Origin: a virus
IMG/VR virus record: IMGVR_UViG_3300036787_000062
Location: 1-44,371 of that record
Strand: one strand, 5' to 3'
DNA length: 44,371 bases
A model generated the notes under the pieces. That model saw only the letters and a list, made by a program, of their open reading frames with translations, did no database searches and was not told where the DNA came from. Below are positions 9,022 to 10,831 of this stretch, one piece after another. Made by a program: the position numbers and the translations under genes. Positions within the stretch are counted from its first letter, which is position 1. Every line of letters starts with the position of its first letter.

Positions 9022-9503
9022 GCAAGATACTCAAAAAAGTTTCGCTGAAAACGCGCGTCCATGGAATCTATTCAGCCATGGCAAAACGATTCGGGCCGAA
9101 ATACTGGAAGTCCGGCAAGCGCCAAGGGAGACTCAGAGAGCCGGGTATCCAGCTTCCCTTTAGCGAGGCCGAATTACTTTCCGGGATGGAGAGAGCGTTC
9201 CCTGGCGGCGCGGCGCGAAATTGCCCCTATTGCGGGGCGGCAATCGACCCTTTCAGTTGCACTCTTGACCACGAGATTCCGATTACACGCGGCGGATCGC
9301 TGGGACTGGAAAACATTGGGCCGATTTGCGCGCGGTGCAATGCTCTCAAAGGGGAGATGAAGCCAGCCGAATTTCACAGTTTCCTTGTTTGGCTAAAGAT
9401 AGTTGGACCGGCGGCGCGCGCGGATATTGAAAAGCGTCTGCTCTCTGGCGGCATGGGAATGAGACTGCGCTATTACGGGATTCGAGAGAGGAGTCAAGGA
9501 TGA
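9018..9503 (+). CDS. HNH endonuclease, 161 aa
   Basis: GTG start at 9018 overlapping the previous stop; longer frames upstream are not supported. Residues about 75-115 carry a complete HNH site: NCPYCG, LDHEIPITRGGS, LENIGPICARCNALKG. The two CxxC pairs bind structural zinc, and His and Asn form the nuclease centre. N-terminal residues are basic. Free-standing HNH proteins in phages act as homing or packaging-associated nucleases. Position in an accessory operon favours a homing-type or defence-related role, but this is not shown. Confidence 0.85.
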   Translation: MSKILKKVSLKTRVHGIYSAMAKRFGPKYWKSGKRQGRLREPGIQLPFSEAELLSGMERAFPGGAARNCPYCGAAIDPFSCTLDHEIPITRGGSLGLENIGPICARCNALKGEMKPAEFHSFLVWLKIVGPAARADIEKRLLSGGMGMRLRYYGIRERSQG

Positions 9504-9607
9504 AAGAGACAGGGATTTTGTTTACCCCGGATAACATCCGCGCCAAAAAGCATCCGTGGTCCAGTAACCCGTATGTGTGGGCGCTGACGTTCAAGGTGCT
9601 ACGATGA
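9500..9607 (+). CDS. Mini-gene: ends of an ASCH-type protein with the middle missing, 35 aa
   Basis: ATGA-coupled on both sides. Residues 5-15 ([11 protein letters not shown]) match the usual N-terminus of phage ASCH proteins, and residues 22-34 ([13 protein letters not shown]) match their usual C-terminus (NPWVW-type strand). The roughly 100 or more residues normally between them, including the RxTxRR RNA/nucleotide-binding loop, are absent. The frame stays open, so an in-frame internal deletion is likely. Whether the peptide has a function or only preserves translational coupling is unknown. Confidence 0.6.
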   Translation: [35 protein letters not shown]

Positions 9608-9795
9608 GCGCCCAGGCAATCGCAGGATGGGCGCTGGTCGCGCTCTTTGCCGTCTCCCTGCTTGCGGAGGCGCTGAGACGGCGTGCATTTCGCCGCAATC
9701 ACATAACGCTCTCAGAGTGGCTTGCAGGGATGCGTGCGCTACCGCCTCTGCCGCCGCCTACACGCACGCAAGAGGGCGCGGTGGGTGGGGACTGA
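9604..9795 (+). CDS. Membrane protein, 63 aa
   Basis: ATGA-coupled to the mini-gene before it. Residues 5-24 (AIAGWALVALFAVSLLAEAL) form one hydrophobic helix followed by basic RRRAFRR and a Pro-rich segment (LPPLPPPTR). Probably a single-span membrane protein. The 55 bp after its stop hold an open frame (ADEAEALRREIDQIGRQE) without a usual start, which I do not call. Confidence 0.6.
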   Translation: MSAQAIAGWALVALFAVSLLAEALRRRAFRRNHITLSEWLAGMRALPPLPPPTRTQEGAVGGD

Positions 9796-9850
9796 CAGCG
9801 GACGAGGCAGAGGCGCTACGGCGCGAGATTGACCAGATCGGGAGGCAGGA

Positions 9851-10141
9851 ATGAACGAACTGAATGCAGGCGAAGAATCTGTGATGAAAGAAACATTCAA
9901 AGCTACGATGCTGAGAGCGGCGGCTATCATCGACGCTATCACCGCAGACGATGTGACCGATGCGCAGATGGCCCTGTACCACACAGGGGTTAAATTGCCA
10001 GACTTGCAGAAAGTTGACCGCGCCTTAATAGCTAGTTGCCATTTGCGAGCGTGCGTAGATGAGAACTTTGGGGAGGATGAGCGAGCTAGAGCCGAAGCAA
10101 TCCTGTCTAATTTGCAAAAGCAGATCGGGAGGCAGGGATAA
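9851..10141 (+). CDS. Unknown helical protein, 96 aa
   Basis: The ATG at 9851 follows GGGAGGCAGGA. Predicted mostly helical (FKATMLRAAAIIDAITADDV; RAEAILSNLQKQIGRQ). Its last codons (QIGRQ) repeat a sequence just before its own start, where the uncalled frame reads QIGRQE; this suggests a local duplication of the ribosome-binding segment. TAATG overlap with the next gene. Confidence 0.65.
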   Translation: MNELNAGEESVMKETFKATMLRAAAIIDAITADDVTDAQMALYHTGVKLPDLQKVDRALIASCHLRACVDENFGEDERARAEAILSNLQKQIGRQG

Positions 10142-10398
10142 TGTGGAGCAAGCGTCCAAAACCGGGAGGAAAGGGATTGCGTTGCACTATTGACGTGCAA
10201 CGAGACGGAAAGTGTGTTTCATGCGATAGACCAGCAAAAAGATTCAGGATTGCGTTAGCCCCCGTTGCCCACTGGATCGCTCCTCTAAAACCTGAGTCTA
10301 TGGAAATAAATGCGTGCGTAGCTCACTTGCAAAAGCTAGGTGAGACTGGCGCACAAATTGAGCGTGTGGATATGCGTAAACGCAAGGACCGCGCATGA
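10141..10398 (+). CDS. Small CxxC protein, 85 aa
   Basis: TAATG overlap with the previous stop and ATGA overlap with the next start. A basic N-terminus (MWSKRPKPGGKG) is followed by CVSCDRPAKRFRI, which could be half of a zinc site. The remainder is mixed, ending MRKRKDRA. No family recognised. Confidence 0.6.
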   Translation: MWSKRPKPGGKGLRCTIDVQRDGKCVSCDRPAKRFRIALAPVAHWIAPLKPESMEINACVAHLQKLGETGAQIERVDMRKRKDRA

Positions 10399-10619
10399 CC
10401 CTCACAGAGTACCCATTGCGCGAAGTGGTCAGCCGGGTTCCATGCCCTTCGCCGTCCGCCTACGACCGCGAGACGCTTTCGTGCGGGCATTGGTGGAACG
10501 TGTATCATTCGGAGGCGGCTGTAAAGCGTAGGCGCTGCCATTTATGTATGCCAATACCACCAAAACCAGAGAAGCGCATGACCGGGCAGTTGACGCTGCT
10601 GATGGAGGGGGAATCTTGA
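10395..10619 (+). CDS. Small zinc-binding protein, 74 aa
   Basis: ATGA-coupled start. CGHWW and, about 18 residues later, CHLC give a plausible C-H-C-C zinc site. The C-terminus (RMTGQLTLLMEGES) is hydrophobic. Function unknown; it forms part of the run of small coupled genes before the methyltransferase. Confidence 0.6.
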   Translation: MTLTEYPLREVVSRVPCPSPSAYDRETLSCGHWWNVYHSEAAVKRRRCHLCMPIPPKPEKRMTGQLTLLMEGES

Positions 10620-10831
10620 AAGCACCGTTTCCTTGGTTCGGTACTTGCGCGTTCCTGCTGAGGATTGCGCTCTGCGGTTACGAGGGCGAGCACACAATGC
10701 CGGATTCTTGGGAGTGCATAGCATGGAAGGCTAACGGCGGATATGCCACTTCGCAAGAGAACAGCGCCAAAGAGCGCATCTGGTTCAGCCCGCATTGCAT
10801 CAGTGGAAAGCAAGGGAGCCTATTCGCATGA
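10616..10831 (+). CDS. Mini-gene: ends of a Dam-type adenine methyltransferase with the middle missing, 71 aa
   Basis: TTG start overlapping the previous TGA. Residues 2-9 (KAPFPWFG) match the first motif of phage Dam-type DNA adenine methyltransferases, which continues GGK in intact enzymes. From residue 15 (LRIALCGYEGEHTMP ... ERIWFSPHC) the sequence matches their C-terminal end. The SAM-binding middle and the catalytic DPPY motif are absent, so it cannot be an active methyltransferase by itself. The join is in frame and both translational overlaps are intact. This is the second gene in the operon with this end-to-end structure. Confidence 0.65.
   Translation: MKAPFPWFGTCAFLLRIALCGYEGEHTMPDSWECIAWKANGGYATSQENSAKERIWFSPHCISGKQGSLFA

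Follow-up and report, generated by a model that had tools for sequence, protein, structure and literature searches.

Introduction

Remnants left by in-frame deletion, and pseudogenes of the same kind, are found in phage operons, where deletion between short repeats preserves both the reading frame and the coupling between genes. The closest counterpart that we have found to the locus analyzed here is gp27 of the Mycobacterium phage prophi62-2, an 85-residue product recovered with tblastn as a single-piece match to a 71-residue sequence from our locus. In gp27 a DNA adenine methylase has been cut in frame to the start of its SAM site and its C-terminal end within a coupled operon, and the related prophage prophiGD11-3 carries at the same place a 354-residue DNA adenine methylase, gp26. 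The two differ by an exact in-frame loss of 807 bp with a 5-bp overlap, CCGCA, and the 4-bp gene overlaps flanking the prophi62-2 remnant are unchanged on both sides. Our search of the literature found no report of this pattern.

Two protein families are relevant to the locus. Phage methylases of the D12 class or Dam type (phrog_56, PF02086) begin with KAPFPWFG, end with CGYEGEH...ERIWFSPHC, and carry between these ends a middle with the target-recognition region and the catalytic motif DPPY. Phage ASCH proteins (phrog_874) include PmgT of P1 and a protein of Vibrio phage X29, and their central residues constitute the ASCH domain itself. In a genome-wide CRISPRi screen, pmgT of P1 is listed as non-essential (PMC10695390).

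The window, by which we mean the whole stretch of 44,371 nucleotides that was analyzed (IMG/VR record IMGVR_UViG_3300036787_000062), contains within one operon two very short genes that the original prediction described as the fused ends of an ASCH-type protein and of a Dam-type methylase, and attributed either to selection to shrink genes or to a recombination process that removes gene interiors. The structural description holds, and we think it likely that the two genes are the leftovers, probably non-functional, of dispensable accessory genes that suffered interior deletions filtered for frame by translational coupling. The locus shares its methylase family, its coupling and the form of the cut with prophi62-2 gp27, but differs in that gp27 keeps FGGKRRAA before the join, has a clean 5-bp repeat junction and has no accompanying ASCH remnant that we noted.

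Results

The features of the operon that bear on the two remnants are as follows.

8937..9503, + strand: HNH endonuclease gene directly 5' of the ASCH remnant (PF01844, E 4e-8); its real start is possibly 3' of 8937, and its stop overlaps the ASCH-remnant start (ATGA)
9500..9607, + strand: ASCH (phrog_874/PmgT family) remnant of 35 residues, consisting of residues 1-15 and the final ~20 residues
9530..9544, + strand: ASCH join (GATAACATCCGCGCC), set against the N- and C-terminal DNA of the full-length genes L155, L157, L159, L161 and L163
9604..9795, + strand: membrane-type ORF of 63 residues, whose ATG overlaps the ASCH-remnant stop
10395..10619, + strand: upstream ORF of 74 residues, whose stop overlaps the TTG start of the methylase remnant
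10616..10831, + strand: D12/Dam-type adenine methylase remnant of 71 residues, consisting of KAPFPWFG and the C-terminal ~57 residues
10643..10654, + strand: 12-nt stretch at the methylase join, coding for TCAF and assignable to neither end
10828..11259, + strand: HNH-like endonuclease gene directly 3' of the methylase remnant, whose ATG overlaps the remnant stop

As predicted, the overlapping starts and stops at both remnants are intact (ATGA at 9500, 9604 and 10828; TTGA at 10616). The two HNH-type genes each adjoin the outer side of one remnant; matches of the 3' one are weak (PF13392, E 0.098; phrog_21964, E 0.002). Searches of Pfam and PHROGs gave no useful family match for the 63-residue ORF, PHROGs revealed no recognizable third gutted gene in the operon, and Rfam found neither an intron nor another RNA between positions 7000 and 12000 of the window.

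Profile searches, which had been proposed as a means of placing the breakpoints, served only in part: PHROGs found the end of the ASCH remnant and missed the methylase remnant, and Pfam matched neither. Because these libraries see too little of the remnants, we tested the claim that both ends are present against relatives.

The first 15 residues of the 35-residue product (segment MKExxILFxxxxxRA) are identical, 15 of 15, to those of the full-length ASCH genes L159 and L160, and its C-terminus corresponds to that of L159 as well, where a short extension follows. The C-terminal segment W..NPWVWxxxF corresponds to positions 239-257 of phrog_874 (PHROGs, E 1e-4), and a shorter phrog_874 relative is matched as well. 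A full-length relative identical over these 15 residues has 251 residues; by alignment, the remnant lacks ~185-190 central residues, including the ASCH domain core (about residues 30-200). Among 5,635 ORF starts in the loci compared, only 14 reach the N-terminal score of the remnant, and all 14 are ASCH-type. The pattern LFTP[DE]..[RA] retrieved six viral contigs in which the peptide opens a full-length ASCH gene and is followed by a KTQTRR-type segment. Full-length versions at the same positions had been proposed as a check; full-length ASCH genes with both remnant ends come from other phages only.

The full-length ASCH relatives contain an imperfect direct repeat, GAYAACATCCGCGC on the 5' side and GATTCCATCAACGCC on the 3' side, where the window has GATAACATCCGCGCC. 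Since this stretch is similar to the beginning of the parent gene as well as to its end, the breakpoint is ambiguous over DNIRA (residues 11-15).

The 71-residue ORF has a TTG start and reads LKAPFPWFGTCAFLLRIALCGYEGEH...ERIWFSPHCISGKQGSLFA. Its opening KAPFPWFG is the usual start of full-length relatives; measured against the SAM-site motif PFPWFGGK it lacks the following GK. Only 24 of the same 5,635 ORF starts reach its N-terminal score, a figure that is a plain count of starts of any type. The C-terminal ~57 residues are 54-77% identical to full-length relatives, with E values down to 2e-26, and keep nearly all of the family-invariant residues. The parent would have had ~330 residues. The end motifs lie 45 nt apart here against a median of 825 nt in relatives, so that by this measure ~780 nt are missing, among them the DPPY motif and the target-recognition region, both of which are found in L007 and in other full-length relatives.

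A search for short repeats at the breakpoints had also been proposed. They are seen as the imperfect repeat of the ASCH relatives and the 5-bp repeat of prophi62-2, but the methylase join of the window is not a clean repeat junction, having 12 extra nucleotides (10643-10654); allowing up to 6 mismatches, we found these nowhere else in the window and not in L007.

The methylase middle itself is retained in 3300048780_000041, a sister phage with 81% terminase identity to the window. Its methylase ortholog has at least 249 residues, the N-terminus being lost at the contig end, and matches the remnant at 77% identity over residues 14-70 (E 8e-30); the DNA match, at 86% identity, begins at position 10655 of the window. 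A search for relatives through the adjacent HNH-like gene found none.

At least two other phages show a similar gutting of a methylase gene, each as a separate event. One case is the prophi62-2 remnant, which recurs in two more IMG/VR records. Another, detected by scanning with a frame-blind pattern, is a 75-residue methylase remnant in contig 3300005683_000238 (L086), flanked by ORFs that look like genes for a large terminase and a portal; relative to the intact locus L083, homology resumes within 4 nt across the join. A scan of a genome collection for further methylase miniatures gave three chance matches only, and a frame-blind pattern for further ASCH miniatures returned full-length C-termini and chance matches, with no second miniature.

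We surveyed 109 distinct methylase loci, ignoring frame; 82 have both end motifs. Large interior deletions were present in three of these 82 (L086/L165, L057 and L014), and all three are in frame; those of L057 and L014 are partial, and L014 additionally has a stop. With the M. abscessus case, also obtained with a frame-blind pattern, four of four deletions are in frame, a result with a chance probability of 0.012 at this small sample size. The two remnants of the window were left out of this count because their open frames had drawn attention to them. In 75 of 140 loci, the methylase stop is coupled to the next start. An ASCH motif was found by regular expression near the methylase in only one of 61 methylase loci; the idea that ASCH and methylase were lost as one joint module is therefore not supported beyond Vibrio phage X29, in which the two genes are neighbors.

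Discussion

We propose that the interiors of both genes were most likely removed between short direct repeats, partly imperfect ones, by illegitimate recombination or by replication slippage. Because the genes are tightly packed, with stop codons overlapping the next start, in-frame deletions would survive; an out-of-frame deletion would misplace the end of translation and so lower expression of the coupled next gene. The leftovers of 35 and 71 residues are probably without function and may persist because they are harmless and keep translation coupled. For the window we infer all three elements, namely the repeat-mediated mechanism, the filter based on coupling and the loss of function. Polarity on coupled neighbors as the filter fits the four in-frame deletions among four, a small sample for which other causes of frame-keeping remain. 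The proposal is favored by the missing DPPY motif, the low pLDDT of the 71-residue product, the existence of full-length relatives and the listing of pmgT in P1 as non-essential; counting against it are that the frame-blind cases number only four, one of which (L014) also has a stop, that 12 nucleotides at the methylase join are unexplained and that nearly all invariant residues of the C-terminus are kept.

The event is of a known kind, of which the locus is an unusually clear and recurrent example: compared with general in-frame remnants, two occur here in one operon, and the same gene family has been hit in unrelated phages. Recurrent methylase gutting looks like gene loss constrained by a packed operon and not like a new system. 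The modest part of the original interpretation, in-frame loss of the interior with coupling maintained, is supported, also by the independent cases; its two causes are not. Selection to shrink genes has no direct support, full-length genes being the rule (79 of the 82 methylase loci are not gutted, and of 335 phage records matching an ASCH query, 330 align with 80% or more of its length). Such loci can be counted, and so allow one to ask whether, in phage operons, translational coupling obliges genes to be lost in frame; they also explain some tiny orphan phage ORFs as gutted enzymes. They carry a warning for annotation as well, in that short "hypothetical" phage genes may hold both ends of a family and no catalytic motif, and that profile searches miss such genes.

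Each join in the window is known from one contig alone, and both could in principle be artefacts of assembly or amplification of a metagenomic contig. We regard this as unlikely. The sequence common to the two sides of each join is far below assembly k-mer length, and frame is kept at both joins, which would happen by chance in one case of nine, albeit for genes noticed as open frames. Equivalent gutting is also present in prophage records from bacterial isolates: the three records of the prophi62-2 remnant belong to the same Mycobacterium abscessus prophage and so represent one event, yet they speak against assembly error there.

It is similarly improbable, in our view, that the remnants are functional mini-proteins under protein-level selection, for example dominant-negative forms or SAM-binding decoys. 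The retention of invariant residues in the methylase C-terminus speaks for this reading, and suggests either that the deletion is recent or that some constraint is left, which one allele cannot separate. Three unrelated phages have closely similar architecture, an N-terminal motif with the last 55-70 residues, and the codon differences from L007, 12 synonymous and 11 non-synonymous over 52 codons, suggest purifying selection on the pair, but this comparison also takes in changes on the sister branch and those that predate the deletion. AlphaFold, given 20 sequences, modeled the 71-residue product with a mean pLDDT of 50 and a pTM of 0.30, no confident fold, which is weak evidence disfavoring a stable one, and the catalytic motif is absent. 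The M. abscessus remnant goes back to one event, and the protein encoded by its retained 3' part is unchanged, as a recent deletion predicts. That the methylase miniature of N-motif and C-tail is a small protein with a function, to which in-frame deletions in unrelated phages have led convergently and more than once, we consider quite unlikely.

The abutment of an HNH-type gene on each remnant raises the alternative that these endonucleases cut the adjacent genes and that end joining left the interior deletions. In 80 relatives, a regular-expression scan of the 900 bp that follow the methylase found no HNH gene, but the expression may overlook HNH types. Early operons of phages often contain HNH genes. 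What comes after the L086 remnant is a long portal-like ORF, with no HNH noticed nearby, and the neighbors of the prophi62-2 remnant carry the annotation hypothetical. We find this explanation very doubtful.

A dedicated process that excises gene interiors, as originally suggested, might account for the pair of remnants in one operon and for the repeated cases within a single gene family, but it is without direct support and extremely unlikely, since the joins are unlike in position and sequence, only three of 82 methylase loci are affected, the ASCH scan gave no second gutted gene, and ordinary short-repeat deletion, which the cleanest case resembles, is enough.

We note three further observations on these families. 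The recognition region of the methylases (L007:120-350) contains tandem repeats of ~14 residues (VNRQLPHLGDAGRG and variants), whose copy number varies among relatives. At L226:649-1569 and L042:3950-4195, methylase C-terminal ends lie downstream of unrelated sequence, and the N-terminal motif is absent. Lastly, one full-length ASCH gene contains an HNH-like ORF in another frame (L161:302-856; PF13392, E 5e-4, under the curated cut-off); Rfam found no intron there, and the ORF is possibly a homing insertion.
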